Shown piece by piece: positions 32,478 to 47,848 of a stretch of DNA of 53,503 nt. The position numbers were made by a program, and so were the translations under genes. Every line of letters begins with the position of its first letter. Position 1 is the stretch's first letter. Under the pieces are notes generated by a model, which saw nothing but the letters and a program-made list of their open reading frames with translations, had not been told where the DNA came from and made no database searches. The stretch comes from Desulfobacteraceae bacterium (GTDB lineage Bacteria > Desulfobacterota > Desulfobacteria > Desulfobacterales > Desulfosalsimonadaceae): the NCBI GenBank assembly GCA_003599885.1, contig QZKW01000068.1:1-53503 (forward strand), read 5' to 3'.

Positions 32478-32503
32478 AAACAGAAGAAGAAAGCGTAAAG
32501 ATT

Positions 32504-33493: not shown

Positions 33494-33547
33494 CCGTTCG
33501 GCTTTTCAGGTCACAAAAGGTATGAAATAACAACGCGCTTCGAAAGG

Positions 33548-35785
33548 TTATTCTGCAGGCATACCCTTCTGGAGGACCCCCTTTATTTTATCCAGAACCG
33601 TGGATTCTTCCGGTTTGGGTTCCCGGCCGGTAAGTTTTATGGCTTTATTCATCAATGACAGTGCCTCCCGCCGCTTTTTGGGGGTTGATAACAATTGAGG
33701 CAAGGTATTAATGGCCATATCCGTATCGGTCTGCAAAAGACGCGCCTGGGAATGCACCATTTGTTTCAGGTCCCTGATGCGAATATCTTTCAATTCTTTG
33801 TTTTCTTCGATCAGCCGAGTCATCAATTCATAGCCTTTTCGCCCGACTTTCTGGTCGGCCAGGCCCACCGCCAGAAGGATCCGGATAACGGCTTCCGGAA
33901 AATCGCCTTTGCCCATCTGCTCCCGCCACAGCACCGCGTCCTGATGCATAAGCTCTTTTTGGCGGGCATTGGCTGCATTTGTTTCTTCCAGTGAAACGTA
34001 AGGCTGAAAAATTTCCATCCATGGTGTTTCATACATGAACTTAAACGTCGTCTCCAAAAAACTGTCCCGCATTTTCCGGTAGACATTCAATCGATCAGTT
34101 ATGAAATCGGACACATATTTTTCAGCTTGATAAAATATATTGTCTTCGGACACCGGATGCCTGTTGTCACCTTCTTTGATCATACTTGCCCCGAAAGCCA
34201 GGGGCAGAAGCCAGGGGTTCAGATCGGAAACCAGATAACGCTGAGTCCGCATGGGGTGCATCTGGCGCAGGGTTTCGGCAGTGAATTCATTGGAGGCCAG
34301 TTTAACCCAGGGTGAAAGCGTCAGCCGATAAACGGTATCATTAATTGTTGACAGCGTCCTGACGGGATAAAATGCTTTTTCATCCCCAAACCCATCATCA
34401 AACGTCATAATGTCTTTCATTTGCTTTTCAAAATAACTCACCTTGTATTCACCGGGCTCCTTGGGATCTTCTTCGATGGCCATCTGGTAAAGCCCCGGCG
34501 GCAGCCAGTCCAGCATATCAAAGCTGGCAATAATTTCCTTGTGTTCCTTTCGGGCGATCTTTGCGGAAACAAAGATGCCGAGGTGGCCGATTTCTTCATG
34601 TTCGATACAGACAATCACCTGGCCGCGGCGTTTGATTTCATCTACTGTGCCGTAAGTTTTGATGATCCAGTTAAAAGCCTGCTGAGGCGGTGTGATGTTA
34701 TCGCCAAAAGACGCAAAAATGACCACCGGGTTGTTATTATGTTTAAGATCGACGGTGCGGCCCTCGTCCAGTTCAAATTTACCCTGCTCCAGTTTATTGC
34801 CCACAAAAAGTCCGTCCACAATGGTGTGGATTTCTTCTCCCGACAGCGAAAAAAAACCGCCCCACCATCTTTCAAAATCAAGGTATCGTTTTTCTTCGGT
34901 ATCAATTTTAGCATACAGGTTATACTGCTTTTCCCAGAGGGTATTGGCCGGATTCAGGTTTTCAAAGTTGGCCACCAGGTTGGCGCCGTCAAATTTGTTG
35001 TTACCCAGATCACTTAAAAAGGAATTGATCCAGACACCGCCCCACAGCCCGCCAAGATACCGCATGGGATGGACCCCTTCAATCCCGCCCCAGTAAGACA
35101 GAGGAGATCCGTTAAACACCATGGGGCCAACAAGATCGGGCCGTTCCGCACCGATGAGCGCAGCGGCCCACCCGCCCTGGCAGTTACCGATAATGGCAGG
35201 CTTCGGGGCTTTGGGATGAAGCTCCCGGATTTTTTCAACAAATTTGATCTGGGCATTGCGCACATCCGTCAGCGTCTGGCCCGGGACAGGATCTGTGTAA
35301 AAAATCATGAAATATACCGGATGACCGGCATCAAGCGCCATGCCGATTTGAGAATCCTGCTTGGAACCGCCAATCCCAGGCCCATGACCGGCCCGGGGGT
35401 CAATGATCACAATAGGACGGGAGGTGGAATACGGCGACTTTTCAGAGACTAAGGCTTTATGCCGCCGGATGTGGTCAGAATCTCTATGATCAATGTCCGT
35501 TTGCTCCGCTGTCTTAATTTTTTGTCGACGATCCTGACTTTCTTCATGCCGCCGGTCAAGGATACGCACCAAGGCATAATTGACCGGCCGGTCAAAATCC
35601 CGGCCATCTTCGATCATCTCATGGTCAAAGACAAGCACCGGCGGCTGTTCATCTCTGAGATGCTCCAGATAAATGTTGCCGCGTTTGCGCATCGCATCCC
35701 AAAAAAGGACCGTTCGTTCGGCGGAATCACGCCAGTATTCGTAAGCATCGCTGCCCCATTTTAAAGTTTCAGCTGCCAGCATCAT
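33548..35785 (-). CDS. DUF3141 protein, PHA-synthase-like alpha/beta hydrolase
   Basis: A 745-aa protein of the DUF3141 family. An alpha/beta hydrolase core lies at about 120-420 with a Cys nucleophile box IIGNCQGGWAA (C202), a likely acid in FGDNITPP (D362) and the His box EIGHLGIFVSAK (H401). The His box is strikingly like that of class III PhaC (TGHIGIYVSS). The N-terminal ~115 and C-terminal ~320 residues are helical and not recognised. It is co-transcribed with a large PhaC-like gene (4-nt overlap, strong GGAGAGAG) and a phasin. It probably acts on acyl-CoA or polyester; synthase, depolymerase or acyltransferase cannot be separated by eye. Confidence 0.8.
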   Translation of the reverse strand: MMLAAETLKWGSDAYEYWRDSAERTVLFWDAMRKRGNIYLEHLRDEQPPVLVFDHEMIEDGRDFDRPVNYALVRILDRRHEESQDRRQKIKTAEQTDIDHRDSDHIRRHKALVSEKSPYSTSRPIVIIDPRAGHGPGIGGSKQDSQIGMALDAGHPVYFMIFYTDPVPGQTLTDVRNAQIKFVEKIRELHPKAPKPAIIGNCQGGWAAALIGAERPDLVGPMVFNGSPLSYWGGIEGVHPMRYLGGLWGGVWINSFLSDLGNNKFDGANLVANFENLNPANTLWEKQYNLYAKIDTEEKRYLDFERWWGGFFSLSGEEIHTIVDGLFVGNKLEQGKFELDEGRTVDLKHNNNPVVIFASFGDNITPPQQAFNWIIKTYGTVDEIKRRGQVIVCIEHEEIGHLGIFVSAKIARKEHKEIIASFDMLDWLPPGLYQMAIEEDPKEPGEYKVSYFEKQMKDIMTFDDGFGDEKAFYPVRTLSTINDTVYRLTLSPWVKLASNEFTAETLRQMHPMRTQRYLVSDLNPWLLPLAFGASMIKEGDNRHPVSEDNIFYQAEKYVSDFITDRLNVYRKMRDSFLETTFKFMYETPWMEIFQPYVSLEETNAANARQKELMHQDAVLWREQMGKGDFPEAVIRILLAVGLADQKVGRKGYELMTRLIEENKELKDIRIRDLKQMVHSQARLLQTDTDMAINTLPQLLSTPKKRREALSLMNKAIKLTGREPKPEESTVLDKIKGVLQKGMPAE

Positions 35786-37503
35786 TTCTCTCTCCTATTT
35801 CCTGTTTTCGACGGTGATGTAGTTTTTAATTTTTTGGCCATGGTGCCTGAACCTGGTTTAGCCGATTTAGCAGACGTTAAAAGATCTGGTCCGGAAGCTT
35901 TCCGGGAAGCCGATGATTTTCGGGCGACTGGAACTGATTTGCCGGATTTCTCCAGCGCATCGTCCAAGTCCAGTTGAAATCTTACCGGGCCCCGATAATT
36001 ATTTTTTCCGAATCGTTTATGAAGCGCGCATTCGGATTCCGGGTGCGACCATGACGTGGCAATTGCCACATGCCCTTTTGGAAACGGTGTAACTTCCGCG
36101 TCAACATAATCCAGAGGGGCCAAAGCCGTTTCTTTCTCCACCAGATCGTCACTTTCTCCATAGCAGATGAGCCATGGAATTTTTTTATCCCTGATTCCCT
36201 TAAAATTGAGCTTTCTGGCGAACATTTTCACCGGCAGCGTGCCGTCATCCGTCACCGGGATATTATAGGAAGCGAAGCTCATTTTTGTTATTGAAAGCGG
36301 AAGATCCGATCGCTCATTTTGGAGCCAGTAATGCAAAGCGGCGGCGGTCTTGCTGATTTGCGGAGACTGGCCGTTGCCGGCGGCAACCATTGAAAGATCC
36401 CGAAAAAAACTGACCATGGGCGCTTCATTTTCAATGCTTTTTAGTTTATAAACCCACCCCATCAGGTTTCCATCAGCCACCTTGTTCCCATTGGCAAGTG
36501 TTTTGGTCCCGTAAATCAGGTCATTGAATCTGGGCGGCAGGGTTTTCAGGAAATTCCCAAGTCCTGTGCTTCTTGTACCGTCCATGGGTGAAACGCAGGT
36601 GATCAGCGCATCCACCAGCCCGTCCAGTTCACCGGAAAGAACATTGCAGACCGCCGTATATCCACCCTGGCAATACCCATTGAGCGTCACCATTTTCCCG
36701 TGGCGTTCCTTGATTTTTTCGCAAAAGAGCCTTGTATCACGGGCATCGTCCTCCGGGGTCATCATCTGGAAAGCGGGGGTGGTTTTTATGTCCTTCATGA
36801 TCCGGATATAGGTCGGCACACCCTGATTGGCAAAACTGTGGGCATAACTCCTTTTTTCACCGGGCAGAAATGCAAGGATGTTGCTCCCGAGTACAAACGG
36901 GGGGATAATCATCACCGGCTTGCGCTCTTCACGGATTTTGACTTTAGAATCCGTGGGCATAATCTGATACAGAAAAAACCGATCGGTTTCCGCAAACCGG
37001 ATATTTTTCCCTCTTTCAAAGTGAAAACCATATTCCGGTTCTATGTCGGATATCGCCTGGGGAAGTTTTCTTGTAACATTTCTCACCATCTCCGCCTGAC
37101 GGGTGAAAAATTCTTCCAGTTTTTCACCTTTGAGATTAAACATGCTGTTATACAATGCTGTTACATAATGCTTCAATTCCTTGCGATTATAGGCATCAAT
37201 CGCTCTTAAACTGCTGTCCAGATATCTGGATAAAAGATCCAGGTTGAACTCAAGAAGCCCCATATATGACTGGAACCGGCTCGGAGAATAACTTTCAAAA
37301 GAGGATGCTTCGGCATTATTGAAATAAATACTGGAAACAAGAAAGGGGGTTACAAAATCGCTATGGTATTTTAGAAGTCCTGTTAACAGGCTCTGCGCGG
37401 CATCCGCATGATCAACAACCGTCAATGAACGTGAAACCACGTCCTGGAACAGATTGTCCATAAAATGTTTATTTAGGTCGCCAAGCGCATGAATCATAGC
37501 CAT
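35782..37503 (-). CDS. large PhaC-like protein with a basic C-terminal tail
   Basis: A 573-aa alpha/beta hydrolase of the polyhydroxyalkanoate synthase superfamily, close in length to class I PhaC. From ATG 37503 the nucleophile box is TLNGYCQGGYTAV (C278), the acid is in YGESDDL (D452/D453) and the His in PKGHVA (H478). The first ~190 residues are mostly helical. The last ~60 residues are rich in Lys, Arg, Ser and Ala (for example ARKSSASRKASGP, MAKKLKTTSPSK), like histone-type tails of granule proteins such as PhaF or PhaM. The neighbours are a phasin and DUF3141. An alternative TTG start is 37512. Confidence 0.78.
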   Translation of the reverse strand: MAMIHALGDLNKHFMDNLFQDVVSRSLTVVDHADAAQSLLTGLLKYHSDFVTPFLVSSIYFNNAEASSFESYSPSRFQSYMGLLEFNLDLLSRYLDSSLRAIDAYNRKELKHYVTALYNSMFNLKGEKLEEFFTRQAEMVRNVTRKLPQAISDIEPEYGFHFERGKNIRFAETDRFFLYQIMPTDSKVKIREERKPVMIIPPFVLGSNILAFLPGEKRSYAHSFANQGVPTYIRIMKDIKTTPAFQMMTPEDDARDTRLFCEKIKERHGKMVTLNGYCQGGYTAVCNVLSGELDGLVDALITCVSPMDGTRSTGLGNFLKTLPPRFNDLIYGTKTLANGNKVADGNLMGWVYKLKSIENEAPMVSFFRDLSMVAAGNGQSPQISKTAAALHYWLQNERSDLPLSITKMSFASYNIPVTDDGTLPVKMFARKLNFKGIRDKKIPWLICYGESDDLVEKETALAPLDYVDAEVTPFPKGHVAIATSWSHPESECALHKRFGKNNYRGPVRFQLDLDDALEKSGKSVPVARKSSASRKASGPDLLTSAKSAKPGSGTMAKKLKTTSPSKTGNRREK

Positions 37504-37564
37504 TGCCCCCAAAAATTATAAAACCCAACTTAACACCTGCGGCCGTGCAGATTTTTAAAGTTTT

Positions 37565-37825
37565 CTATTTTGCTTCATACAGATCTTCCATTCTGGTGTA
37601 ACCATCATCCACGGCTTTTTTAAAATCATCCCTTGCTTTTTTGGTGAAGTTCAGGGTGTCATTCCATGTTTTTTTCCCATCCTTGGTGATCCATGGGAAC
37701 TGGTTCAGAAATCCGTTGAACACATTTTCAGTTTGATCCTGAACAATGACCATGGCATTAAATGTGTTGTCAAAAAAAGTTTTCTGAAATCCGATCATTT
37801 GTTTGGCAATTTTGGCTGCTTCCAT
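37565..37825 (-). CDS. small phasin-like protein 1
   Basis: An 86-aa amphipathic, all-helical protein. It aligns without gaps over its whole length with the 86-aa protein at 43575-43835, sharing I-x-F-x-KT-x2-DN-x-F-x-AM, then PWI/SWI and GKK, and a C-terminal F-K-x2-VD-x2-Y-x3-ED. The clustering with PHA synthase genes and the size argue for a granule-coating phasin. AAAGGAG precedes ATG. It heads the operon that includes the PhaC-like and DUF3141 genes and has its own strong promoter (37945-37972). Confidence 0.75.
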   Translation of the reverse strand: MEAAKIAKQMIGFQKTFFDNTFNAMVIVQDQTENVFNGFLNQFPWITKDGKKTWNDTLNFTKKARDDFKKAVDDGYTRMEDLYEAK

Positions 37826-37944
37826 GTTGAAATCTCCTTTTGTTTAAAAAATTAAGCAAATTACATTGAAATCAACGGAGTAATTCATCTGCCCCGATTA
37901 AAAACTCCCGGATCTCAATCCACATTGTTTCATGTGTGTCAAAA

Positions 37945-37972
37945 ATATTAGACCCCCCGAACGCTTTGTCAA
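37945..37972 (-). promoter_or_regulatory. sigma-70 promoter of phasin 1
   Basis: On the minus strand TTGACA (37972-37967), a 16-nt spacer and TAATAT (37950-37945) form a near-consensus promoter about 120 nt upstream of the phasin start. The TGC-type operator at 37984-37993 lies just upstream of its -35. Confidence 0.75.
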
Positions 37973-37983
37973 GGGAAAAATAC

Positions 37984-37993
37984 TGCGTTGCAC
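37984..37993 (-). promoter_or_regulatory. candidate PhaR operator at the phasin 1 promoter
   Basis: On the minus strand the site reads GTGCAACGCA, followed by GTA. Its GTGCA is exactly 16 nt from the -35 TTGACA. The phasin 2 promoter carries GTGCATTGCA followed by ATA at the same distance. PhaR proteins are known to bind TGC-rich sites near phasin genes. Confidence 0.55.
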
Positions 37994-38084
37994 ATAAGCC
38001 TTTAGCTTTTTAAAAAATAAATATAATATTGTATTAATTGATAAATAAATTTTTTTTTAAAATTTTAATGAGTTAAAATTGACG

Positions 38085-38113
38085 TTGACATAAAAATTGC
38101 TGCACTGTAGCAT
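38085..38113 (+). promoter_or_regulatory. candidate sigma-70 promoter of phaR1
   Basis: TTGACA (38085-38090), a 17-nt spacer and TAGCAT (38108-38113). The spacer and -10 contain TGCTGCACTGTAGCA (38098-38112), whose TGCT and AGCA ends are inverted. A repressor of the TGC-binding type placed here would block the promoter, consistent with autoregulation. Confidence 0.5.
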
Positions 38114-38168
38114 CAATTTTCAGCTCATTTGGACCCTCATTATTTCTCTCAGAAAAAGGAACCTCTTC

Positions 38169-38609
38169 ATGTCCGACAAAATAACGATTAAAAAATACCC
38201 CAACAGAAGATTGTATGATGCAACAAACAGCATTTACGTCAGCTTAAATGACGTTTCAGATGCAATCAAAAAAGGCTCCCGCGTTGAAGTGATTGATGTC
38301 AAAACCGGCCAGGATGTGACCGCTTTTATCTTGACCCAGATCATCATGAACAAGGCAAAAGAAGAGACAGCCCCCCTGCCCGTTTCACTGCTTCACCTCA
38401 TCATTCAGTATGGCGAAAGCCTCCTTCACGAATTTTTTGAAGTATACCTTGAAAAGACAATAGAAAATTATCTTGAATACAAGAAACGCATGGATGATCA
38501 GATAAAAACGTTTCTTGAAATGGGAATGGATTTTTCCAGCCTGGCCGGAAAAACATTCAAAGACATTGATCCGATGATGTTTTTTTCAAAACCGAAAAAA
38601 GAAGAATAA
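38169..38609 (+). CDS. phaR: PHA synthesis repressor PhaR, copy 1
   Basis: PhaR represses phasin and synthase genes and binds PHA granules, which relieves repression. The 146-aa protein has the N-terminal DNA-binding domain signature (KKYPNRRLYDATNSIYVSLNDV, about 6-65) and the PHB_acc domain (VTAFILTQIIM, LLHLIIQYGESLL, about 55-115), then a short C-terminus. ATG 38169 (MSDKITIKKYP) matches the family start; the frame is open upstream. It is divergent from phasin 1 and upstream of phaE1. Confidence 0.9.
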   Translation: MSDKITIKKYPNRRLYDATNSIYVSLNDVSDAIKKGSRVEVIDVKTGQDVTAFILTQIIMNKAKEETAPLPVSLLHLIIQYGESLLHEFFEVYLEKTIENYLEYKKRMDDQIKTFLEMGMDFSSLAGKTFKDIDPMMFFSKPKKEE

Positions 38610-38868
38610 TTGTGTAATAAAAAATATTCACCACAGGATTTCAGCGCAGGCTGATTTCCCCAACAGCAAAAATAATTAAAATGGAAAAATAATTATTGCA
38701 CTTGTCAGAGCAGCCATTTAAATATTGAACAGGCTCTAAAATTCATACACACCCCCTTCTTTTTTCAGATTGTACGTTAACACCCCTCAGCTGCACCGAA
38801 TCCTGTATTTCCGGCACACTAAGAACAATAATAAAAGCATCTTTATTTGCATTATTGGGTGAAACCGG
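38610..38868. other. phaR1-phaE1 spacer
   Basis: A 259-nt spacer without a gene. It contains TGCA-bearing strings (TTATTGCACTTG near 38691 and TTATTTGCATTATTG near 38842) similar to those at the phasin 2 promoter. I cannot point to a good -35/-10 pair, so whether phaE1 has its own promoter is open. Confidence 0.35.
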
Positions 38869-39789
38869 ATGGAAAAGCCCACAACTGCGGAAAGAAAACC
38901 AGAACTCCCGACTTTTTCATGGCTTGAACTGACTACGGGATTCTGGGAGGAATTTTCAAGGATCCTCAATGAAACCCGAACCGAACCGGATACAACAGCA
39001 CCCTGTTCTTCAGAAGAGAGCCCGCTTAAAGACAAGCACCGGACATACCAAGCCTGGAAAACCGGTTTAAAGAGCCTGAACTCTTTTATTCAGATGGTAT
39101 CCCGGCACGACAACCAGGAATCGGTTTCCGGCTCCATGGTAACATTTTTCGAGTTATTCACCCAGATCATCGGTGATTCATCAGAAAATTTACTGGAATT
39201 TCAAAGCCAGCTCTTAAACAGCATTTCAAAAATCGGAGAACATACAAAGGCTTACAATTTTGATGATATGGATCAGCGCATTTTTGAATCATTCAGGCAT
39301 CTTTATGAAAACGAGTTTAAAAAATATCTTTATATCCCCAAACTCGGCCTGTCGAGATTCCATCTTGAGCGCATCAGCCTTCTTATTGACAAGTTCAACA
39401 TATATCACTCACACCTCAATGAACTGATCTACCTCTTCTTCATACCGCTTGAAAAAACCAACCGGATCATGCAGGCAAAAATTGATGAGTTAATGAAACA
39501 GAAAGACTTTATCGAGGATTCGGGTGCGCTCTATAACGAGTGGATTAAAATGCTGGAAGGTCACTACATGCACCTGCTCCAGTCCGCCGAATATATCCGG
39601 ATACTTAACAACACGATCGATTCCCTGACAGACTATCGAAATTCAAAAAACGAAGTGCTATGCCTGTTATTAAAAGAGCTTCCGATACCGACTAATAATG
39701 AAATGGATGATGTTTATAAAGAACTCTATATGATGAAAAAAGAAATCAAGAGACTTACGACTCAGTTGAATCTTATGAATAACCGATAA
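38869..39789 (+). CDS. phaE: class III PHA synthase subunit PhaE, copy 1
   Basis: PhaE is the non-catalytic partner that stabilises and activates class III PhaC. The 306-aa protein is mostly helical. The family core is visible in FKKYLYIPKLGLSRFHLER, YHSHLNELIYLFFIPLEK and the stretch EWIKMLEGHYMHLLQSAEYI. The C-terminus ends in a short coiled-coil (YKELYMMKKEIKRL). The N-terminal ~40 residues are variable. The ribosome-binding site is weak. It is followed by phaC1 after 52 nt. Confidence 0.88.
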   Translation: MEKPTTAERKPELPTFSWLELTTGFWEEFSRILNETRTEPDTTAPCSSEESPLKDKHRTYQAWKTGLKSLNSFIQMVSRHDNQESVSGSMVTFFELFTQIIGDSSENLLEFQSQLLNSISKIGEHTKAYNFDDMDQRIFESFRHLYENEFKKYLYIPKLGLSRFHLERISLLIDKFNIYHSHLNELIYLFFIPLEKTNRIMQAKIDELMKQKDFIEDSGALYNEWIKMLEGHYMHLLQSAEYIRILNNTIDSLTDYRNSKNEVLCLLLKELPIPTNNEMDDVYKELYMMKKEIKRLTTQLNLMNNR

Positions 39790-39841
39790 TCCATGATCCA
39801 AACTTTCAGGTTTTTTCAAATCATTTAAAAAGAGGCAGGAA

Positions 39842-40927
39842 ATGACCAGACCCCAAATTCCGGTTGACCTGATTTTAAAAAATCTGGCGGAAGAACAAAA
39901 AAACACCAAAACGCGCATCAGGAAAGCCGTCGATATCTTAACCCATAAACTTGAGACAAACATTTCCACCACAACTTACGAAATTGTTTACCAGGAAGAC
40001 CGGGTCAGGCTCAAACATTATCAGCCCGAACATATGGATATCAAAACACCCCTGCTGATTGTTTATGCGCTCATTAACCGGGAGACCATGCTGGATCTCC
40101 ACCCGGACAGAAGTGTTGTTCGAACCCTGTTAAAAAACGGAATTGACCTTTTCATGATTGACTGGGGATACCCGACACGCAAAGATCAGTACCTGACCAT
40201 CGGTGATCATGTGAATGGATATATTCACAATATCGTAGAGTTCCTGTGTGAAAAATATAACCTGCCGCAGATCAATCTGATGGGCATCTGTATGGGGGGA
40301 ACTTTTTGCGTGATCTATTCTGCCCTTCATCCTGAAAAAATCAAAAACCTGGTCCTGACAGTCACCCCCACCAATTTCGACACCGATAAAGGCCTGCTTA
40401 ATATCTGGATGAAAAACACGGACGCCGGTCAGCTGGGGGATACATACGGCAATATGCCGGGCGACCTGATGAATCTTGGCTTCCTGCTCTTAAATCCTGC
40501 AAGACTGATGATCGACAAATATTTCGGATTTTTTAAAAATATGGATGACAAAGAGTTTGTGGAAAACTTTGTCAGAATGGAAAAATGGATTTTTGACAGT
40601 CCGGATGTTCCGGCCGCCACTTTTAAGCAATTTATCAATGACTGCTACAAGAAAAACCTCCTGATACAGAGCAAACTGGAAATTGATGGAAAAATCGTCG
40701 ATCTAAAAAACATAACCATGCCGGTAATAAATTTTTACGGGAAATACGATCATCTGGTCCCCCCGGAATCCTGCGAACTCATAACCCAAAAAGTGGGTTC
40801 GACGGACACCCGGGATGTCTGTTTCAATACCGGACATATCGGCATCTATGTCAGTTCAAAGTGCCAGAAGGAATTTGCGCCCCAGATTGCCGGATGGCTG
40901 AAGGAAAGAGAGGGTTCATTTTTGTAA
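39842..40927 (+). CDS. phaC: class III poly(3-hydroxyalkanoate) synthase PhaC, copy 1
   Basis: PhaC polymerises (R)-3-hydroxyacyl-CoA into PHA. The 361-aa length is that of class III. The nucleophile is C150 (MGICMGGTFCVIYS), the general acid D303 (YGKYDHLVPP) and the base H332 (TGHIGIYVSS); spacing equals that of the Allochromatium enzyme. Other family blocks are FMIDWGYPTRKDQYLTI and TPTNFDTDKGLLNIW. AGGCAGGA precedes the ATG. It lies between phaE1 and the tandem-GAF gene, 23 nt before the latter. Confidence 0.96.
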   Translation: MTRPQIPVDLILKNLAEEQKNTKTRIRKAVDILTHKLETNISTTTYEIVYQEDRVRLKHYQPEHMDIKTPLLIVYALINRETMLDLHPDRSVVRTLLKNGIDLFMIDWGYPTRKDQYLTIGDHVNGYIHNIVEFLCEKYNLPQINLMGICMGGTFCVIYSALHPEKIKNLVLTVTPTNFDTDKGLLNIWMKNTDAGQLGDTYGNMPGDLMNLGFLLLNPARLMIDKYFGFFKNMDDKEFVENFVRMEKWIFDSPDVPAATFKQFINDCYKKNLLIQSKLEIDGKIVDLKNITMPVINFYGKYDHLVPPESCELITQKVGSTDTRDVCFNTGHIGIYVSSKCQKEFAPQIAGWLKEREGSFL

Positions 40928-40950
40928 ACATTCAGAAACGGAATGAGGCC

Positions 40951-41994
40951 ATGACGAATTGCCAAGGATATTTTAAAACATTCTGCAGGATCAGCCGATT
41001 AATTCAAAGAACCTTTGAAATGGAAGAAATCCTCCAGCTGATTGTTGAAAGCGCGGTGGATGCCATGAATGGAAAAGCCTGTGCGTTGTTTCTGAAAAGC
41101 GACGATGGAGATTTTTTCGTGCCTGCCGCGCAAAAGGGACTATCGGATAACTATATCCATGCCGAGCCTCTGGGCGCCAGAAACGTCATAAAAAAAATCC
41201 TGAAGGATGGCGGCTATCTCGCCATCAGGGATGCGACAACCGACCGGAGAATTCAAAATCATGAAGTCAAAAAAGCAGAAGGAATCGCTTCAATTCTGGA
41301 TGTACCGGTCATGGCGGATGACCAACCGATTGGAATTCTGGCACTTTACACGGACAAACCAAGAGAGTTCTCTGCGCAGGAGATTGAATTTTTAGGAGGT
41401 CTTGCGGATCAGGGGGGCATGGCTATCCAGAAGGCGCGCTTTATCAGGAGAAAAAAACAAAATGCCGAACTGCTTCTCTCCATTACCGAAAAGCTGAACT
41501 CCTCTCTGGATATCATAAAAATTCTCAATATCATGTCGGCTGAAATCGCAGAAGCCTTTAATGTCAAAGGGATCACCATCCGGCTGATGGATGAAAAACA
41601 AAAAGAGCTGAAACTGGTTGCCAGCTATGGTTTGAGTGAAAAATACATTAACAAGGGGCCGGTCTCCGCCAGCCAGCTTGAAAAATTTCTCAAAAACCAA
41701 TGGGAAATATTAAAAGATGTAAACCCTGGTGATATTGACTATTTTGATGAAAAAACTGAGGAAGGCATCGCCACCATCCTAAGCCTTCCCATAACCATCA
41801 GGGAAAAAGCTATCGGCATCATGCGCGTCTACTGCGATCAGGAAAGGAAATTTCCGGAAGATACCGTCAGCCTGATGCGGTCTCTTGCCCGGCTGGGAGG
41901 GCTGGCTATCCAGAATGCGTCTATTTATCTTCAGCTGAAACATGACAAGGAGGACCTTGAAAAGGAAATCTGGACACATAAATCCTGGTTTTAA
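40951..41994 (+). CDS. tandem-GAF protein of PHA module 1
   Basis: A 347-aa soluble protein with two GAF domains (about 12-165 and 180-325) and no recognisable output domain. The first GAF shows AVDAMNGKACALFLKS and EGIASILDVPVMADDQPIGIL; the second shows EGIATILSLPITIREKAIGIM. The last residues are a predicted helix ending EIWTHKSWF. The paralogue at 46015-47058 has the same length and tail and the same place after phaC. GAF domains usually bind small molecules or mediate dimerisation; here a sensor tied to PHA synthase is inferred. ATG 40951 follows GAGG; the frame overlaps phaC1 if read from 40861. Confidence 0.85.
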   Translation: MTNCQGYFKTFCRISRLIQRTFEMEEILQLIVESAVDAMNGKACALFLKSDDGDFFVPAAQKGLSDNYIHAEPLGARNVIKKILKDGGYLAIRDATTDRRIQNHEVKKAEGIASILDVPVMADDQPIGILALYTDKPREFSAQEIEFLGGLADQGGMAIQKARFIRRKKQNAELLLSITEKLNSSLDIIKILNIMSAEIAEAFNVKGITIRLMDEKQKELKLVASYGLSEKYINKGPVSASQLEKFLKNQWEILKDVNPGDIDYFDEKTEEGIATILSLPITIREKAIGIMRVYCDQERKFPEDTVSLMRSLARLGGLAIQNASIYLQLKHDKEDLEKEIWTHKSWF

Positions 41995-42009
41995 ACCGTT
42001 TGTCTGTCA

Positions 42010-42192
42010 TCACACAAAAAGCTTATCGCCATCGCGCCGGCATTGCTCCCGTCGGCAAATCCAGCCCACCGTGGTAATATAAGCAAATCCGTCACTTTCC
42101 ATCTCACGCCGTTCACCTTGGCGCCGCTCGTTTCCATTTGTATTCGGCTCGGGTGGTGACATTCGATAAGCCCCATGTTGCTTTGTCTCCAT
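42010..42192 (-). CDS. small Arg-rich protein, function unknown
   Basis: A possible 60-aa protein between the two PHA modules. It has an Arg/Glu-rich stretch (NERRQGERREMES), then ITTVGWICRREQCRRDG. GAGGTG lies 4 nt before ATG 42192. ERR-x-x-ERR strings occur in small proteins of this phylum, but I cannot name the family. Its frame and the ribosome-binding site are the main support. Confidence 0.5.
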   Translation of the reverse strand: METKQHGAYRMSPPEPNTNGNERRQGERREMESDGFAYITTVGWICRREQCRRDGDKLFV

Positions 42193-42370
42193 GGTACACC
42201 TCATATGTATTCTTTGACTTTTTGCCTTATCTCAAATTCAGGAAACAAGAAGGCGCATTGAATATAAAACAAAAATATATAAAATTCAGATGGATAACAG
42301 GAGGCATTCAACCTGAGCATGTACAGGGTTTCAAATATAAAAACAATATAAGACCGGATTCAGGGGGGCG

Positions 42371-42405
42371 CAATAAGTATTTCATACTTATTGATTTGAT
42401 TTTTT
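42371..42405 (+). terminator. hairpin plus T-run, possible terminator
   Basis: CAATAAGTAT (42371-42380) pairs perfectly with ATACTTATTG (42384-42393) around TTC, followed by ATTTGATTTTTT. It could end transcripts from module 1 on the plus strand. The CAATAA/TTATTG ends also resemble the palindrome at 43082-43100, so a protein site is the alternative. Confidence 0.45.
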
Positions 42406-42455
42406 ACCGGCGTATTTCATTTTAATTATTATATATCACTAAACTAATAAAACTT

Positions 42456-42965
42456 TTATTCAGCATCCTTACTTGAAGATTCACTCTCCTGTCCTTTATC
42501 ATCCGATATATCGGACTCAGACGGGAAAAATTGTTTAAAGAAAGATTGAAGCGGGTTTGCCGGATCAAAAGGCCGGCTTCCCTTGGCAGTCAGCCCTGCC
42601 CCCATTTCCAGCCACTGATTGAACTGTTCGTCCACCACCTCTTTATAAGTCAGATAACTCCTGACCATTTTCTCAAGATGCTTGCCGAAAAAATCCACCA
42701 GAATTGTTTCACCATAACGGATAATCAGGTGAAGCAGCGGAACCGGCAAAAGGGCGTTCTTCTTTTTGGCTGCTTCCATTACGATCTGGGTCAGTATGAA
42801 CGCTGTCACATCCTCCCCGGAATCGACGTCTGTCACCGCCACCCAACGCCCCTGCTTTATCATTTCCGAGACTTCGGCCAGGGTCACATAAACGCTTTTT
42901 TCCGTATCATAAAGCCGCCGATTGGCGTATTTTTTCAAATGAACCAACTTTTCTGAATCCGACAT
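42456..42965 (-). CDS. phaR: PHA synthesis repressor PhaR, copy 2
   Basis: A 169-aa paralogue of the PhaR at 38169. The DNA-binding signature is LKKYANRRLYDTEKSVYVTLAEV (read in parts) and the PHB_acc part has VTAFILTQIVM and LLHLIIRYGETIL. The C-terminal ~50 residues differ from copy 1: a Pro/Phe segment (NPLQSFFKQFFPSES) and a Ser/Glu/Asp tail. It is divergent from phasin 2 and shares the intergenic region with its operator-like repeats. Confidence 0.9.
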   Translation of the reverse strand: MSDSEKLVHLKKYANRRLYDTEKSVYVTLAEVSEMIKQGRWVAVTDVDSGEDVTAFILTQIVMEAAKKKNALLPVPLLHLIIRYGETILVDFFGKHLEKMVRSYLTYKEVVDEQFNQWLEMGAGLTAKGSRPFDPANPLQSFFKQFFPSESDISDDKGQESESSSKDAE

Positions 42966-42998
42966 CCATCACCTCAGCTTCTCAATTTTTGATACATC

Positions 42999-43115
42999 GC
43001 AATAAAAAAACATAAATTCAAATTAAAAATTAACTATATAATCTATAAATACATGAAATATGTATAAATAAATACCAACCGCAATAAAATTATTTTATTG
43101 TGCATTGCAATAAAA
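42999..43115. repeat. array of GCAATAAAA half-sites between phaR2 and phasin 2
   Basis: GCAATAAAA occurs in direct orientation at 42999, 43081 and 43107. An inverted copy TTTTATTG lies at 43093-43100. The middle pair forms the perfect palindrome CAATAAAATTATTTTATTG (43082-43100, 9-1-9). The array ends just upstream of the phasin 2 -35 box. Confidence 0.7.
43100..43109 (+). promoter_or_regulatory. candidate PhaR operator at the phasin 2 promoter
   Basis: GTGCATTGCA followed by ATA. Its GTGCA is 16 nt upstream of the -35 TTGACA, the same spacing and pattern as at the phasin 1 promoter (GTGCAACGCA then GTA). Confidence 0.55.
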
Positions 43116-43120
43116 ATAAC

Positions 43121-43148
43121 TTGACAGCCAGCACACCTGTTTTATATT
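43121..43148 (+). promoter_or_regulatory. sigma-70 promoter of phasin 2
   Basis: TTGACA (43121-43126), a 16-nt spacer and TATATT (43143-43148), about 100 nt upstream of the start codon. It probably drives the run phasin 2 - phasin 3 - phaE2 - phaC2 - GAF - phaJ. Confidence 0.75.
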
Positions 43149-43247
43149 CAAGGTAAACAAAAATTCATTGCCTTTCGGAAATGGATTTAAAGGTAAAGTA
43201 ACAGATCCAACCCGACAATTAAAGCATATATAAATGGAGGTAGCGAT

Positions 43248-43511
43248 ATGACAACAAAAGAAATCATAAAAGAGGCATTCGTGGATTCGATTAAAAACAT
43301 CCATAATTTCAACTTCAACGCCTTTGCTGCGGTGGAAACTCAGACCGAAAAGGCAATACATGCCGTTCTGGACAAAACCCCCTGGGTCAACGATGACGCA
43401 CGTAAAGCGGCAGACACATGGATTGATGCAGCCAGACAGGGGCGCAACCATGTAAAGGGGATATTGGATGAACAGATTAAAACCTTTGAAAATTTTACAG
43501 CAGCATTGTAG
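43248..43511 (+). CDS. small phasin-like protein 2
   Basis: An 87-aa helical protein with a strong GGAGGT ribosome-binding site. It shares the general pattern of the other two small phasins: an amphipathic N-terminal helix (SIKNIHNFNFNAFAAVETQTEK), a PWV turn near residue 45, and a C-terminal amphipathic helix ending ILDEQIKTFENF. Its first part is less similar to phasins 1 and 3. Its position after a PhaR-type regulatory region supports a granule-surface role. Confidence 0.7.
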   Translation: MTTKEIIKEAFVDSIKNIHNFNFNAFAAVETQTEKAIHAVLDKTPWVNDDARKAADTWIDAARQGRNHVKGILDEQIKTFENFTAAL

Positions 43512-43574
43512 CATAGAACCAGTATTTGTTTTACGAACCTAAACCAACAACTCAGAATCAAAGGAGACATGGAC

Positions 43575-43835
43575 ATGGATAACAAACAACTCATGAACCA
43601 GGTGATCAAATTCAATAAAACCATCCTTGACAATGCATTCAAGGCCATGACCATGGCCCAGGAACAGGGCGAAAAAATGATTACATCCACCCTGGATCAG
43701 GCATCCTGGATACCTGAAGAAGGGAAGAAAGCGATAGTGAACTGGGTCAAAGCATACCAGAAAGGCTCCGAAACATTCAAAGCCACTGTTGACGAACAGT
43801 ATAAAAAAGTTGAAGATTACTTCTCAAAATCGTGA
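43575..43835 (+). CDS. small phasin-like protein 3
   Basis: An 86-aa helical protein, co-linear with phasin 1 without gaps (MDNKQLMNQVIKFNKTILDN against MEAAKIAKQMIGFQKTFFDN). This alignment and the spacing of AGGAG fix the start at 43575 rather than 43569. It lies 63 nt after phasin 2 and before a hairpin at 43893-43934. Confidence 0.75.
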   Translation: MDNKQLMNQVIKFNKTILDNAFKAMTMAQEQGEKMITSTLDQASWIPEEGKKAIVNWVKAYQKGSETFKATVDEQYKKVEDYFSKS

Positions 43836-43892
43836 CCTGAGGCGCATCTGAAGCGTCTTCACTTTAATTAAAAAACCCCCATTATTTTCTGA

Positions 43893-43934
43893 AGAGCGGA
43901 AGCCCCATAAATTGTTCTAAGCGGCTTTCGCTCT
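43893..43934 (+). terminator. hairpin after the phasin pair
   Basis: AGAGCGGAAGCC (43893-43904) pairs with GGCTTTCGCTCT (43923-43934), 12 bp with one G-U, across an 18-nt loop. Only a short TTT follows. A leaky terminator or an mRNA-stabilising structure here would let phasins be made in excess over the synthase genes downstream. Confidence 0.5.
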
Positions 43935-44006
43935 TTGCAGAACCAATAACGGCCTTAAATTCTTTTTTCCGATTAAATATAGAATTGAGCCTGTGGAGAA
44001 AGTGTT

Positions 44007-44897
44007 ATGGATGAATCTTCCGGCAAATCATTGGACCCGGCGGCATGGTTCAACCTGTGGATGAAATCTGCAAGTGAGGCGTGGTCCGCCATGCCGCAAG
44101 CCATTCCGACAGGGTTTACAGTACCAAAATCCGAAGGCAACGATTCTGCACTGCCCAAATGGGCAGAAGACCAGGTCCTTAGCTGGCAGTCCCTGGTATC
44201 CCTGATGGGTCATCCAAATACACTGGCTGCCTCGTTGCAAGATATCTCCCGAATGCCGGAATCCTTTTTCAGTCTGATTTTTCCCATGCTGACAAGCGCT
44301 GCCGAAATACACCAGAAACACATGGGTCAGATGGGTAAAGCCGGTGACTTTCTTTCGTCTTTTAATTTTAAGGATCCCGAAAAACTTGCCCTGGATCAAT
44401 GGAGCGCCCTCTACGATCAGGAATTCAGGAAATTCCTGAATATTCCACAGCTCGGACTCACCCGCCAATATCAGGAAAAAACAAACCGGCTCATGGACCG
44501 GTTTAACCTGCTCCAGGCCGCTTTGGCTGATTTTCTTCGCTTGCTATACCTGCCGTTTGAAAAAACCCAAGCCGATTTTTCGCAAAAACTGGTCGAAGCT
44601 GCCGAAAAAAATGAAATTCCAAAAGATCCCAAAGCCCAGTACATGATCTGGCTGAAAATGCTGGAAGGCCATTACATGACGCTGTTTAAAACCCCCGAAT
44701 ACTTAGCGTGCTTAAGCAAAACCATCAGCGCTTCTGCGGAATATTCTATGGCCAAAAAATCATTGATGGATGATCTGCTGAAAACCATGTCGATCCCCTC
44801 GTCAGATGCCATCGAGGGGGTTTACAAGGAAATGTACGACATGAAAAAGCGGATCAAGGATCTGGAAAAAATTGTCAAAACGCTAATTCAAAGGTGA
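44007..44897 (+). CDS. phaE: class III PHA synthase subunit PhaE, copy 2
   Basis: A 296-aa paralogue of the PhaE at 38869. Shared blocks include FRKFLNIPQLGLTRQYQEK, QAALADFLRLLYLPFEKTQ, IWLKMLEGHYMTLFKTPEYL and the C-terminal coiled coil (YKEMYDMKKRIKDLE). The N-terminal ~90 residues differ (PAAWFNLWMKSASEAWSAM). GGAGAAAG precedes the ATG. It ends 4 nt before phaC2. Confidence 0.9.
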   Translation: MDESSGKSLDPAAWFNLWMKSASEAWSAMPQAIPTGFTVPKSEGNDSALPKWAEDQVLSWQSLVSLMGHPNTLAASLQDISRMPESFFSLIFPMLTSAAEIHQKHMGQMGKAGDFLSSFNFKDPEKLALDQWSALYDQEFRKFLNIPQLGLTRQYQEKTNRLMDRFNLLQAALADFLRLLYLPFEKTQADFSQKLVEAAEKNEIPKDPKAQYMIWLKMLEGHYMTLFKTPEYLACLSKTISASAEYSMAKKSLMDDLLKTMSIPSSDAIEGVYKEMYDMKKRIKDLEKIVKTLIQR

Positions 44898-44901
44898 TAC
44901 C

Positions 44902-45987
44902 ATGACCCCGTCAGGCGTTCCGGTCGATCTGATTTTATCAAAACTGGCTGAAAGTACAGAGAAAACTCATACCCGCGCATCGGATGTATTGCTGGGCCCC
45001 ATTGCTACCGAAATCGCACAGACCCCTTATGATGTGGTCTATAAAGAAGACCGGGTGAAACTAAAATATTACCACCCGGAGAATCGCCCCAATAGCCACG
45101 TTCAGACGCCTCTTTTAATCATTTACGCACTGATAAACAGAGAAACCATGCTGGACCTTCAACCCGGAAGAAGTGTGGTCCAGAACTTTCTCGACAATGG
45201 AATTGATGTATACATGATCGACTGGGGCTATCCTTCTCAAAAAGACAAATACATTACCCTCGATGACCATGTAAACGGTTACATCCACAACGCGGTTGAC
45301 ACCATAAGGGGCCGGCACAGCGTCAGCAGTATCAACATCATGGGCATCTGCATGGGCGGTTCCATGAGTGTGATGTTTGCGTCCCTGCACCCGGACAAAG
45401 TCAAAAACCTGATCACCACGGTCACTCCGTCCAATTTCGACACCGATAAGGGCCTGCTGCATGTGTGGATGAAACACATTGACGCAGACCAGCTGGTGGA
45501 TACGTATGGAAATATCTCCGGCGACTTCATGAATTTCGGGTTTCTGCTCCTTAACCCTGCCCGGCTCATGCTCGACAAATACGTCGGTTTTATGGAAAAC
45601 ATGGAGGATCGGGAATTTGTAGAAAATTTCGTACGCATGGAAAAATGGATTTTTGACAGTCCGGATGTGCCGGGCGAAACCTTTCGTCAGTTTGTCAAGG
45701 ATTGTTACCAGAAAAACTTGCTGATCCAGAGTCGGCTGGAACTTGGCGGAAAAATTGTAGACTTGAAGAACCTCACCATGCCGCTGCTTAATATTTACGG
45801 CAAATATGATCATCTGGTGCCGCCGGAAGCTTGTGAATTACTGACCAGCCGCGTCGGAAGCACGGATACGGAAGATGTCTGCCTTGACACCGGTCATATC
45901 GGCATCTATGTCAGCTCGAAAACAAGAAAAGAATTTGTCCCCAAAATCGTCAAGTGGTTAAAACAGCGGGACGCGGAATCAGACTAA
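44902..45987 (+). CDS. phaC: class III poly(3-hydroxyalkanoate) synthase PhaC, copy 2
   Basis: A second 361-aa class III synthase with the triad at C150 (MGICMGGSMSVMFA), D303 (YGKYDHLVPP) and H332 (TGHIGIYVSS), identical in position to copy 1. Large blocks are the same as copy 1 (for example FVENFVRMEKWIFDSPDVP), so the pair arose by duplication. Both look fully active. It follows phaE2 by 4 nt (AAGGTGA) and precedes the second tandem-GAF gene by 27 nt. Confidence 0.96.
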   Translation: MTPSGVPVDLILSKLAESTEKTHTRASDVLLGPIATEIAQTPYDVVYKEDRVKLKYYHPENRPNSHVQTPLLIIYALINRETMLDLQPGRSVVQNFLDNGIDVYMIDWGYPSQKDKYITLDDHVNGYIHNAVDTIRGRHSVSSINIMGICMGGSMSVMFASLHPDKVKNLITTVTPSNFDTDKGLLHVWMKHIDADQLVDTYGNISGDFMNFGFLLLNPARLMLDKYVGFMENMEDREFVENFVRMEKWIFDSPDVPGETFRQFVKDCYQKNLLIQSRLELGGKIVDLKNLTMPLLNIYGKYDHLVPPEACELLTSRVGSTDTEDVCLDTGHIGIYVSSKTRKEFVPKIVKWLKQRDAESD

Positions 45988-46014
45988 TACCCGATTGGCG
46001 CAAGGAGTCTATCT

Positions 46015-47058
46015 ATGGCAAAAAATATGGATTATTTTAACAGCATTTGTAGGGTCAGCCGGGCATTCGGCACCACTTTAAAAAAGGCGGAACTGCTTGA
46101 TCTGATTGTCAATACGGCGATCAATACCATGAACGGAAAAGCTGCCTGCCTGTTCCTGGCGGACAGGGAAAAAGATATTTTCGTACCGGTCGCCCAGAAA
46201 GGGCTTTCTAAAAACTATCTGCATTCTTCCCCGGAAAGCGCCCGAAAATCCGTCAAAACCCTCCTGAAAAAAGGGTATCTGTCCATTTATGACGCCACCA
46301 CCGACGAAGCGTCCGAACATCAGGAAGCCAAAAAAACGGAAGGCATTGCCTCCATTCTGGTGGTGCCGGTCATCGTGCACGATGAGGCCATTGGCGTTCT
46401 GACCCTTTATACAGAAACCCCACGGAAATTCAGCAAAGACGAAATTTCCTTCCTTCGGGCGCTGGCGGAACAGGGCGGCATTGCCATTGACCGGGCAAGA
46501 CTCATTGAGCATATCCATCGAAATACAAAACTGTTCCACGACCTGTCCGTCGGCATTAATGCGTCGCTTGACCTGCGGCATATCATGAAAACGCTGACCG
46601 TCGATCTGGCCCGCTCATTCAAGGCCAAAGGGGTATTGGTTCGGCTCGTTGACGCGGATAGCAAGGCCCTGAAACTGGTGGCCAGTGAAGGATTAAGCGA
46701 CGCTTTTTTAAACCAGGATTCCGGCGAGGATGCCATCACCCGAAACACCTTAAGCGGCAAAACGATCCTGATCATGAACGCAGCTGCCGACTTAACGGTC
46801 CTGAACAAACAACTGTTTCAAGAAGAAGGTATTGTCTCTTTTCTGAGCGCACCCATCATCTCCGGCAAGGAAACCATCGGGGTACTCCGCTTGTTTTTCA
46901 GCTCTGAACGAGGCTTTTATGATGATGAAATCATGATGATCAATGCATTTGCGCATCAGGCCGGACTGGCGATCCAAAACTCCAGTTGCTTTATTTCTCT
47001 GGAAAATAACTACAAAGATCTGAAAGATGATATCTGGAGCCACCGATCCTGGTTTTAA
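46015..47058 (+). CDS. tandem-GAF protein of PHA module 2
   Basis: A 347-aa paralogue of the protein at 40951, with the same length, two GAF domains (about 10-165 and 180-325) and the same type of tail (DDIWSHRSWF). Shared strings include NTMNGKAACLFL, FVPVAQKGLSKNYLH, TEGIASILVVPVIVHDEAIG and FAHQAGLAIQNSS. No output domain is present. AAGGAG precedes the ATG. Its retention after phaC in both modules suggests a physical or regulatory link with the synthase; the ligand is unknown. Confidence 0.87.
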   Translation: MAKNMDYFNSICRVSRAFGTTLKKAELLDLIVNTAINTMNGKAACLFLADREKDIFVPVAQKGLSKNYLHSSPESARKSVKTLLKKGYLSIYDATTDEASEHQEAKKTEGIASILVVPVIVHDEAIGVLTLYTETPRKFSKDEISFLRALAEQGGIAIDRARLIEHIHRNTKLFHDLSVGINASLDLRHIMKTLTVDLARSFKAKGVLVRLVDADSKALKLVASEGLSDAFLNQDSGEDAITRNTLSGKTILIMNAAADLTVLNKQLFQEEGIVSFLSAPIISGKETIGVLRLFFSSERGFYDDEIMMINAFAHQAGLAIQNSSCFISLENNYKDLKDDIWSHRSWF

Positions 47059-47110
47059 GGATCAGCCTCATAACCCTCTCAAACCTTTTAATAATAATAT
47101 CAGGTGACCT

Positions 47111-47533
47111 ATGCAAATCAAAACCATCGAACAGATACAGGTTGGCGACAGGGCCGAATTCGCCAAAACCGTTTCCGAAAGCGACATCTATCAATACGCC
47201 GGAGTGACCGGGGATTTTAACCCCGCCCATATCAATGAACATTACGCTGCCGGAACTTTTTTTAAGACCCGGATCGCTCACGGCATGCTTTCCGCCGGGT
47301 TCATATCCAATGTCGTCGGCAACCAGTTGCCCGGTCCGGGCGCTGTATACATCCGGCAGAATCTGAATTTTCTCGCGCCGGTCCGCATCGGCGACACCAT
47401 TACAGCGATTGCTGAAGTCACAACCGTCCAGTTGGAAAAAAACCGGGTCACCCTAAACACCCGGTGTATCAATCAGGCCGGGACTGTTGTTATCGATGGC
47501 GAGGCGGTCCTGAGCCCGGCCAAGAAGCGATAA
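47111..47533 (+). CDS. phaJ: (R)-specific enoyl-CoA hydratase, MaoC/PhaJ family
   Basis: A 140-aa single hot-dog domain. The hydratase motif is AGVTGDFNPAHINEHYA with catalytic D35 and H40, the same spacing as in Aeromonas PhaJ. GMLSAGFISNVVGNQLPGPG and the following FLAPVRIGDTI complete the signature. It turns trans-2-enoyl-CoA from beta-oxidation into (R)-3-hydroxyacyl-CoA, the substrate of PhaC. AGGTGA precedes the ATG. It is the last gene of PHA module 2. Confidence 0.92.
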   Translation: MQIKTIEQIQVGDRAEFAKTVSESDIYQYAGVTGDFNPAHINEHYAAGTFFKTRIAHGMLSAGFISNVVGNQLPGPGAVYIRQNLNFLAPVRIGDTITAIAEVTTVQLEKNRVTLNTRCINQAGTVVIDGEAVLSPAKKR

Positions 47534-47848
47534 TATTCTGAAGCCACCTGTCAGAACTACTTAAAATACTGGATTCTTAATTTACAGAGATGCGCCCCTC
47601 CTGTATGCCGGTCAAACATCGATCATAAAGCGCTTTTTTCTTGTTTTCGATATTCATTTAAAGCCTCTTTGAAGTGATTGACTTTTTGAATAAATATTTA
47701 TAAAATCAAAAAAAGTAAATTTTTGATTTTTTTTCTGAAATTTACGCTCTGCCGGTTAAAATAACAGTTATTCAATGTATAGTTTAACTTATACCTCTTA
47801 TAACCGATAACCAACAAAAAACGCATTTTCAATCCTGGAGGGGGAGCT
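47534..47848. other. 315-bp region between phaJ and the lipoprotein gene
   Basis: No gene is seen. It contains an AT-only hairpin (47702-47734) and is strongly AT-rich. A promoter for the lipoprotein gene should lie here, but several poor candidates exist and none stands out. Confidence 0.5.
47702..47734 (+). terminator. AT-only hairpin with T-run, weak terminator candidate
   Basis: AAAATCAAAAA (47702-47712) pairs perfectly with TTTTTGATTTT (47720-47730) around a 7-nt loop, followed by TTTT. The stem lacks G-C pairs apart from one, so it would be weak. It is the only candidate end for the phaJ transcript. Confidence 0.4.

Follow-up and report, generated by a model that had tools for sequence, protein, structure and literature searches.

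Class III polyhydroxyalkanoate (PHA) synthases are two-subunit enzymes composed of PhaE and PhaC, as in the PhaEC pair of the Allochromatium vinosum type, and a phaEC pair has reportedly also been found in Desulfococcus multivorans. The window analysed here, a stretch of 53,503 nucleotides from a Desulfobacteraceae bacterium (assembly GCA_003599885.1), is the whole of contig QZKW01000068.1 (C26) of a 4.51-Mb draft genome in 90 contigs, and carries an island at positions 33548-47533 in which two class III modules adjoin. In common with the A. vinosum type, the PhaC proteins of the island pass the class III family model TIGR01836 and possess the Cys-Asp-His triad, and the phaE gene lies immediately upstream of phaC; the island differs in the presence of two adjoining modules, in PhaE proteins that are distant from their family model and in a gene for a tandem-GAF protein that follows immediately downstream of phaC.

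Haloferax mediterranei likewise possesses several class III-type PhaC per genome, three additional phaC genes being described there as untranscribed in the wild type (PMC2939530); unlike in that organism, each PhaC copy of the island has its own PhaE, PhaR and phasin-like genes, all at one locus. The PhaR-phasin autoregulation of Ralstonia eutropha has in common with the island the placement of PhaR beside phasin genes (here phasin-like) and a palindromic TGC-N3-GCA-type operator in a divergent promoter (PMC12849132, PMC3570403), whereas in the island a pair of PhaR genes (50% identical) is served by separate divergent promoters ~4.8 kb apart. One report connects the DUF3141 family (PF11339), also represented in the island, with class III PHA synthase (PMC8601165), and another uses the name phaZ for it (PMC8050969); these proteins share with that of the island their family membership and their association with PHA genes, and the published names conflict on function.

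We consider it probable that the island represents two class III PHA systems, each complete in itself, that were separately inherited and now adjoin, a reading that includes the predicted working of their parts. As far as can be judged from sequence comparison, the arrangement would be better explained by juxtaposed modules than by one locus duplicated for specialization, and the pair looks like either a replacement caught part-way or redundancy retained in this species.

Two class III modules and their operators

PhaC1 and PhaC2 score 413.5 and 436.4 bits, respectively, against TIGR01836 (cut-off 365.3) and both have 361 residues with the triad C150/D303/H332, as had been stated in a first-pass annotation of this DNA; judged by family model and triad, both are class III PHA synthase subunits. 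PhaE1 and PhaE2 pass the cut-off of PF09712 and fall under that of the NCBIfam PhaE model TIGR01834 (61.2 and 62.7 bits against 154.95). The first-pass annotation had also listed four proteins with a synthase-like Cys box, all of which are present (GICMGG twice, GYCQGG and GNCQGG), and three small phasins. The three small open reading frames (ORFs) are indeed found at their proposed places, but no Pfam family matched their products and no NCBIfam model matched the first of them (the second and third were searched in Pfam only). The name phasin rests on size, on a mutual identity of 27-35% and on genomic context, and these proteins are therefore referred to here as phasin-like.

The PHB_acc_N DNA-binding domain (PF07879, cut-off 25) is present in both regulators, with 87.4 bits in PhaR1 and 89.9 bits in PhaR2; PhaR1 reaches 91.7 bits against the NCBIfam PhaR model TIGR01848, below its cut-off of 109.45, while PhaR2 was scored in Pfam only. 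Among 47 divergent PhaR/phasin regions of relatives, counted after removal of identical ones (L002 and L007 are apparently the two strands of one contig), TGCANTGCA occurs in 35 (shuffle mean 0.79) and the looser TGCN3GCA in 44 (shuffle mean 3.66). The PhaR palindrome of R. eutropha, YTKNTGCRNYGCANMAR (PMC12849132), is in line with the motif TGCANTGCA. Within the 4.51-Mb genome TTGTGCANTGCA occurs once, at position 43098 in the promoter of module 2. With this exact site in module 2 and a looser one in module 1, each module retains a predicted PhaR-type operator.

Occurrence was assessed in 146 genomes at the level of the order, in a family draw of 36 genomes that partly overlaps with it and in 297 genomes at the level of the phylum. 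Class III PhaC was found in 61 of the 146 order genomes, eight of which hold more than one copy, a count that leaves out four weak or partial second matches to class III PhaC (G177, G079, G029 and G017; identity 27-46%). Two copies within 20 kb occur in three of the 61, including that of the window, and draft contigs may conceal more; the earlier view that such redundancy in one locus is unusual is thus borne out. In each of the other two genomes an ordinary PhaC is accompanied by a distant copy (L063:15381-16730 in G140 and L070:11590-12648 in G158), and since the distant proteins are 48-50% identical to PhaC2 these pairs do not represent the same event as that of the window. A frequent layout in the order consists of the gene for a large PhaC-like protein (hereafter PhaCL) and one or more phasin genes facing PhaR-PhaE-PhaC-GAF-PhaJ.

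Separate descent of the two modules

PhaC trees were built from 83 rows and, more carefully, from 55 of these, 28 rows having been left out as long, distant or redundant. PhaC1 groups with module-1 PhaC proteins of the same genus (G031, G035 and a contig labelled Desulfococcus sp. Ww167), followed by a Desulfocapsaceae sequence and, further out, by other families, while PhaC2 groups with members of its own family (G029, G019, G025, G005 and G001). PhaC1 and PhaC2 are not each other's closest relatives, as a tandem duplication would require, and forcing their groups together in the 55-row tree costs 51 log-likelihood units (approximately unbiased, AU, test, p = 0.031). Likewise, in the GAF, PhaE and PhaR trees modules 1 and 2 join different relatives, module 1 always grouping with its same-genus counterparts; beyond these its nearest kin vary, PhaR1 lying by Desulfamplus and the other genes by the Desulfocapsaceae sequence. 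G031 and G032 each have a further PhaC and GAF protein, and these form a third lineage together with G017; the number of such modules in the genus is therefore greater than two. Between modules 1 and 2, identity amounts to 66% for PhaC, 50% for PhaR, 42% for GAF and 29% for PhaE. The first-pass annotation had raised the possibility of a recent assembly duplication; these identities and the four trees rule out a recent or assembly duplication of the module. In eight of ten comparisons of module genes dN/dS lies between 0.06 and 0.19 with respect to relatives, the values for PhaC2 and GAF2 being rough (dS > 2).

The history of the locus can be followed in relatives. In G029, of the same genus, an exo/endo-phosphatase gene, bioB and two other genes precede module 2 and module 1 is absent; downstream of module 2 lie genes for a MopE/fn3 protein and then a cNMP-binding protein, both of which are also found downstream in the window. 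In G019, of another genus, the order is bioB, a PhaR gene, a DUF3141 gene and module 2. In G035, again of the same genus, the whole of module 1 (68-93% identical) is present on a separate contig, and the bioB locus (L114:8859-10305) retains a remnant of module 2, in which PhaC2 contains an internal stop, PhaE2 is represented by its first ~60 residues and GAF2 by its two ends; the stretch contains no N, and decay and draft error are indistinguishable from the draft. Of the proteins encoded in G029 and G035 between bioB and module 2, four were scored, and none reached a Pfam cut-off. Since the modules have separate tree relatives and module 2 stands alone at the bioB locus in relatives, the two appear to be separately inherited modules that have been juxtaposed, and it is to this that the comparisons of synteny and of PhaC and PhaE trees proposed in the first-pass annotation trace the tandem. 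Module 1 was apparently inserted between bioB and the resident module 2, which appears to have decayed in a relative. At a third PHA locus of G035 (L115:6126-10849), genes for PhaE, class III PhaC and a phasin-like protein adjoin that of a class I synthase (521.9 bits, TIGR01838).

Between the window and G035, the proportion of differing synonymous sites (pS) is 0.50-0.57 in seven of seven gene comparisons of module 1, 0.62-0.89 in seven of seven at the bioB locus (six genes, with PhaC2 as two pieces) and 0.69 for uvrA. The corresponding values for PhaC1 are 0.50 against G031 and 0.59 against G032, and those for uvrA are 0.71 and 0.66, respectively. This pattern suggests that module 1 may have been transferred within the genus. 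Module 1 has a G+C content of 44.6%, compared with 46.3% for module 2 and 49.1% upstream. The island proteins tested included no product of a mobile-element gene. The presence in G035 of an intact module 1 and a remnant of module 2 indicates that both modules are not needed in every relative; they are apparently able to replace each other, which would argue against obligatory specialization.

Several observations weigh against this account. A parE-like gene displays a pS of 0.43 between the window and G035, lower than that of module 1, and a recent transfer of module 1 is therefore unproven. At the settings used, positions 31000-48200 showed no repeats flanking the modules at their borders, so no insertion mechanism is visible. 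The groups compared in the AU test were named after inspection of the tree and its p value is only modestly below 0.05, while synonymous sites are saturated in PhaE2 and in the comparison of PhaC1 with PhaC2, the other two of the ten dN/dS estimates. Furthermore, the PhaR-type site of module 1 in the window is degenerate (TGCGTTGCA) and conforms only to the TGCN3GCA form.

Local duplication followed by specialization, by which one ancestral module would have been copied in place and the copies would have diverged for different polymers or conditions, could account for the PhaE-PhaC-GAF order common to both modules, for their tandem placement and for both being intact in the window, and the divergence of PhaE far beyond that of PhaC (29% versus 66% identity) might reflect different partners or granules. 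It is nevertheless improbable, as PhaC, PhaE, GAF and PhaR each join different outside relatives, other genomes have module 2 alone at the bioB locus and module 1 elsewhere, and in G035 module 2 has decayed while an intact module 1 lies on a separate contig. An artefact of assembly or binning, which might be suspected from a draft in 90 contigs with a contamination figure of 2.4% and two gyrB genes (proteins 55% identical), is very unlikely in view of the same-genus orthologues of both modules, the conservation in relatives of the bioB-side and downstream neighbours of module 2 and the lack of a border repeat that would favour misjoining. The redundancy is thus real and rare, and we read its cause as the juxtaposition of two conserved modules, one of which can apparently be lost in a relative. 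The double island and the decayed copy of a relative would together constitute a natural series for studying the replacement of storage modules.

The tandem-GAF protein, DUF3141 and PhaCL

In 41 of the 61 PhaC genomes a tandem-GAF gene lies no more than 3 kb from PhaC. For this count 51 GAF places were retained; the remaining parts of split matches were left out, as were matches that were weaker or contained a single GAF domain, and three of the places omitted (on other contigs or in a PhaC-less genome) score slightly above the weakest one kept. By Pfam, alignment and model (mean pLDDT 82.3) the protein consists of two GAF domains and has no output domain, and its fold resembles the GAF modules of PDE5A and phytochrome (3lfv, TM 0.64; 8w26, TM 0.59; by query length). 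What it shares with the PDE5A tandem-GAF and phytochrome GAF-PHY modules is the fold; unlike these, it has no catalytic or DNA-binding output domain, ends in a fixed Trp-Phe and is encoded with PhaC. The C-terminal Trp-Phe is present in 48 of the 49 PhaC-adjacent copies fetched, the exception (L080) running into a contig end. Some PhaC-adjacent GAF proteins have 512-514 residues with an apparent third GAF unit and keep the Trp-Phe end (L057, L062, L069, L072 and L076). The protein may contact the synthase directly in a ligand-sensitive manner, and its frequency near PhaC together with its conserved end would make it a candidate for direct ligand control of PHA synthase. No recognisable report of a PHA-operon GAF protein was found in the literature, hits having been judged mostly by title and the start of the abstract.

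DUF3141 is found in 52 of the 146 order genomes (one second piece was left out of the list of places) and in four of the 85 genomes without PhaC. Residues C202/D362/H401 are invariant in 11 of 11 aligned members and the family profile matches that of class III PhaC with E = 1.3e-16. On two plasmids from outside this group, DUF3141 adjoins fabI or phosphate acetyltransferase, not a PHA synthase.

PhaCL is a normal companion of class III modules: it occurs in 51 of the 146 order genomes, all 51 of which possess class III PhaC, leaving ten PhaC genomes without it (Fisher p = 1.2e-29, relatedness not corrected). In one of the 51 (G140) only a fragment is present, and in 31 of the 51 the distance from PhaCL to PhaC is no more than 8 kb. 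In the family draw PhaC is found in 12 of 36 genomes and PhaCL in six, all among the 12; at the level of the phylum PhaCL occurs in 18 of 297 genomes (PhaC was not searched in that set), and on plasmids it had no match. The third, different synthase-like operon of the first-pass annotation is therefore correct insofar as a Cys-box PhaC-like gene is located there, but the gene is a standard companion of PhaC rather than an additional peculiarity and its product scores below the synthase cut-offs.

The PhaCL of the window has no Pfam match and a sole NCBIfam match, to TIGR01836 with 22.1 bits. Of 28 aligned members, 27 match this model at E <= 0.01 (best 8.6e-11), all far under its cut-off, and six match the general Abhydrolase_1 model at the same threshold, while C281/D455/H481 are invariant in all 28. 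With depth-matched profiles the median scores of PhaCL are 67.7 for class III PhaC, 47.5 for class I PhaC, 38.6 for DUF3141 and 25.3 for the Cys-type intracellular depolymerase PhaZ. Against class III PhaC, the class I PhaC, PhaZ and DUF3141 profiles each score 112-197 and PhaCL 49-85; other pairs among the known families score down to 42. The AlphaFold model (mean pLDDT 79.5) displays a long helical N-terminal part, and its fold is nearest to class I PhaC structures, followed by the PhaZ of Bacillus thuringiensis, a serine enzyme. The TM score by target is 0.55-0.61 for catalytic domains and the r.m.s.d. is ~20 Å for full-length synthases, and the alignment with class I synthases extends into the N-terminal part without superposition there. 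The 50 fold matches listed include no PhaZ of the Cys type, and a search for solved relatives by sequence returned none that is credible (best E 0.41). Comparison with hhalign likewise revealed no similarity of the N-terminal part to phasins or PhaE (E 0.38 and 0.13, respectively).

On the other side of the balance, the residue that follows the catalytic Asp of PhaCL is Asp in 25 of the 28 members (Thr in two and Ser in one), whereas it is His in 13 of 15 class III and seven of seven class I PhaC rows, from which rows the diagnostic value of this His is deduced. The synthase-side profile and fold, taken with this Asp, point to a distant branch on the synthase side that carries one depolymerase-like residue, and on the basis of these comparisons an accessory acyltransferase or third synthase would be a little ahead of a depolymerase.

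That PhaCL is the intracellular PHA depolymerase of the order, a Cys-type hydrolase or thiolase mobilizing the granule, is a doubtful proposal. It would fit with the constant company of PhaC and with the rarity of matches to the Cys-type PhaZ model TIGR01849, found at E <= 1e-10 in ten of the 146 genomes, none above the cut-off and none in that of the window. The Asp after the catalytic Asp is shared with three of six local PhaZ-like proteins, the B. thuringiensis PhaZ comes next to the synthases in the fold list, and two genomes of the family without PhaCL (G025 and G005) carry a PhaZ-like gene beside module 2. Mutual replacement of PhaZ and PhaCL is, however, unsupported at the level of the order, as all ten PhaZ-like genomes have PhaCL as well; moreover, PhaZ gives the lowest of the depth-matched profile scores and class I synthases are the top folds in the Protein Data Bank (PDB). 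The window protein did not match TIGR01849 at E <= 0.001, nor was this model listed for any of the 28 members at E <= 0.01, and the profile comparison gave E = 0.058. PhaZ-like proteins with ~103-124 bits against TIGR01849, below its cut-off, adjoin PHA modules in L066, L068, L073, L092, L120, L121 and L123.

Marginally less probable, and on the whole unlikely, is the reading of PhaCL as a full third PHA synthase, of a novel class with a single subunit and a distinct helical N-terminal part. The intact triad, class III PhaC as the closest profile and class I synthases as the best fold match, with an alignment reaching into the N-terminal part, speak for it, while PhaCL never occurs without class III PhaC among the 146 genomes, remains under every synthase cut-off and does not have the His after the catalytic Asp. 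PhaCL is a conserved Cys-triad family with no specific Pfam or NCBIfam model, found only in class III PhaC genomes, and could represent either the so far overlooked depolymerase in these bacteria or a novel acyltransferase. No recognisable report on it was found among literature hits judged, as above, mostly by title and abstract start.

All biochemical roles in the following outline are predictions. Module 2 (PhaR2 / phasin2-phasin3-PhaE2-PhaC2-GAF2-PhaJ) would be the resident of the bioB locus, and module 1 (DUF3141-PhaCL-phasin1 / PhaR1-PhaE1-PhaC1-GAF1), another lineage of the same system, would have been inserted between bioB and module 2. PhaE and PhaC would form the synthase polymerizing (R)-3-hydroxyacyl-CoA, which PhaJ may supply from β-oxidation, and the phasin-like proteins would cover the granule. 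PhaR, acting at the TGCANTGCA-type operator, would keep the divergent phasin/phaR promoter repressed until titrated by the nascent granule, the GAF protein, with its ligand-binding-type domains and Trp-Phe tail, may tune the synthase by direct contact, and PhaCL may be a granule-associated Cys acyltransferase from the PhaC side, acting as an accessory synthase or chain-transfer enzyme together with PhaEC. Much more tentatively, this order of sulfate-reducer-like bacteria may possess an enlarged class III machine in which PhaEC is joined by a GAF subunit that would gate the synthase on binding a small ligand and dock through its Trp-Phe, and by PhaCL as a distinct branch within the PhaC/PhaZ/DUF3141 superfamily with a granule reaction of its own, module 1 being transferable and able to supplant the resident, and the genome of the window running both modules under distinct PhaR control.

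Features of the island and its surroundings

All ORFs of the island were found at the coordinates given in the first-pass annotation, whose gene list (phasin, PhaC-like and DUF3141 genes, the phaR, phaE, phaC and GAF sets and phaJ) therefore holds. On the minus strand of module 1 the stop of the PhaCL gene overlaps the start of the DUF3141 gene; the PhaCL start is uncertain, TTG 37512 being that listed. The nearest NCBIfam model of the PhaJ-like protein is PRK08190, with 141.3 bits, below its cut-off of 282.

Features of the PHA island in window coordinates
Feature	Position	Strand	Module and remarks
DUF3141 alpha/beta-hydrolase-like protein, GNCQGG Cys box	33548..35785	-	Module 1; PF11339 744.7 bits (cut-off 29.7)
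PhaCL, large PhaC-like protein, 576 aa as listed, GYCQGG, long helical N-terminal part	35782..37512	-	Module 1
Phasin-like small protein 1	37565..37825	-	Module 1; named by position and similarity to phasin-like proteins 2 and 3
Divergent promoter region with degenerate PhaR-type site TGCGTTGCA at 37984	37826..38168	.	Module 1
PhaR1 regulator	38169..38609	+	Module 1; PF07879 87.4 bits; ATG at 38169
PhaE1	38869..39789	+	Module 1; PF09712 74.4 bits
PhaC1, class III PHA synthase subunit (by family model)	39842..40927	+	Module 1; TIGR01836 413.5 bits; triad
GAF1, tandem-GAF protein, C-terminal WF	40951..41994	+	Module 1; two GAF domains; ATG at 40951
PhaR2 regulator	42456..42965	-	Module 2; PF07879 89.9 bits
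Divergent promoter with PhaR-type operator TTGTGCATTGCA at 43098-43109	42966..43247	.	Module 2
Phasin-like small protein 2	43248..43511	+	Module 2
Phasin-like small protein 3	43569..43835	+	Module 2
PhaE2	44007..44897	+	Module 2; PF09712 79.8 bits
PhaC2, class III PHA synthase subunit (by family model)	44902..45987	+	Module 2; TIGR01836 436.4 bits; triad
GAF2, tandem-GAF protein, C-terminal WF	46015..47058	+	Module 2; two GAF domains
PhaJ-like MaoC-fold (R)-enoyl-CoA hydratase (predicted)	47111..47533	+	Module 2; PF01575 87.1 bits

Directly 3' of module 2, at 47849-49882 of the window, lies a gene for a protein with a MopE metal-binding motif and an fn3 domain, a homologue of which occupies the same place in G029 and G025. 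The two gyrB genes of the genome of the window (G000) are located on contigs C88 and C9 (L152 and L156) and may represent two gyrases or a contaminating contig. The window itself also carries a dnaB-like gene at 2880-4265 and dnaA at 8472-9842.

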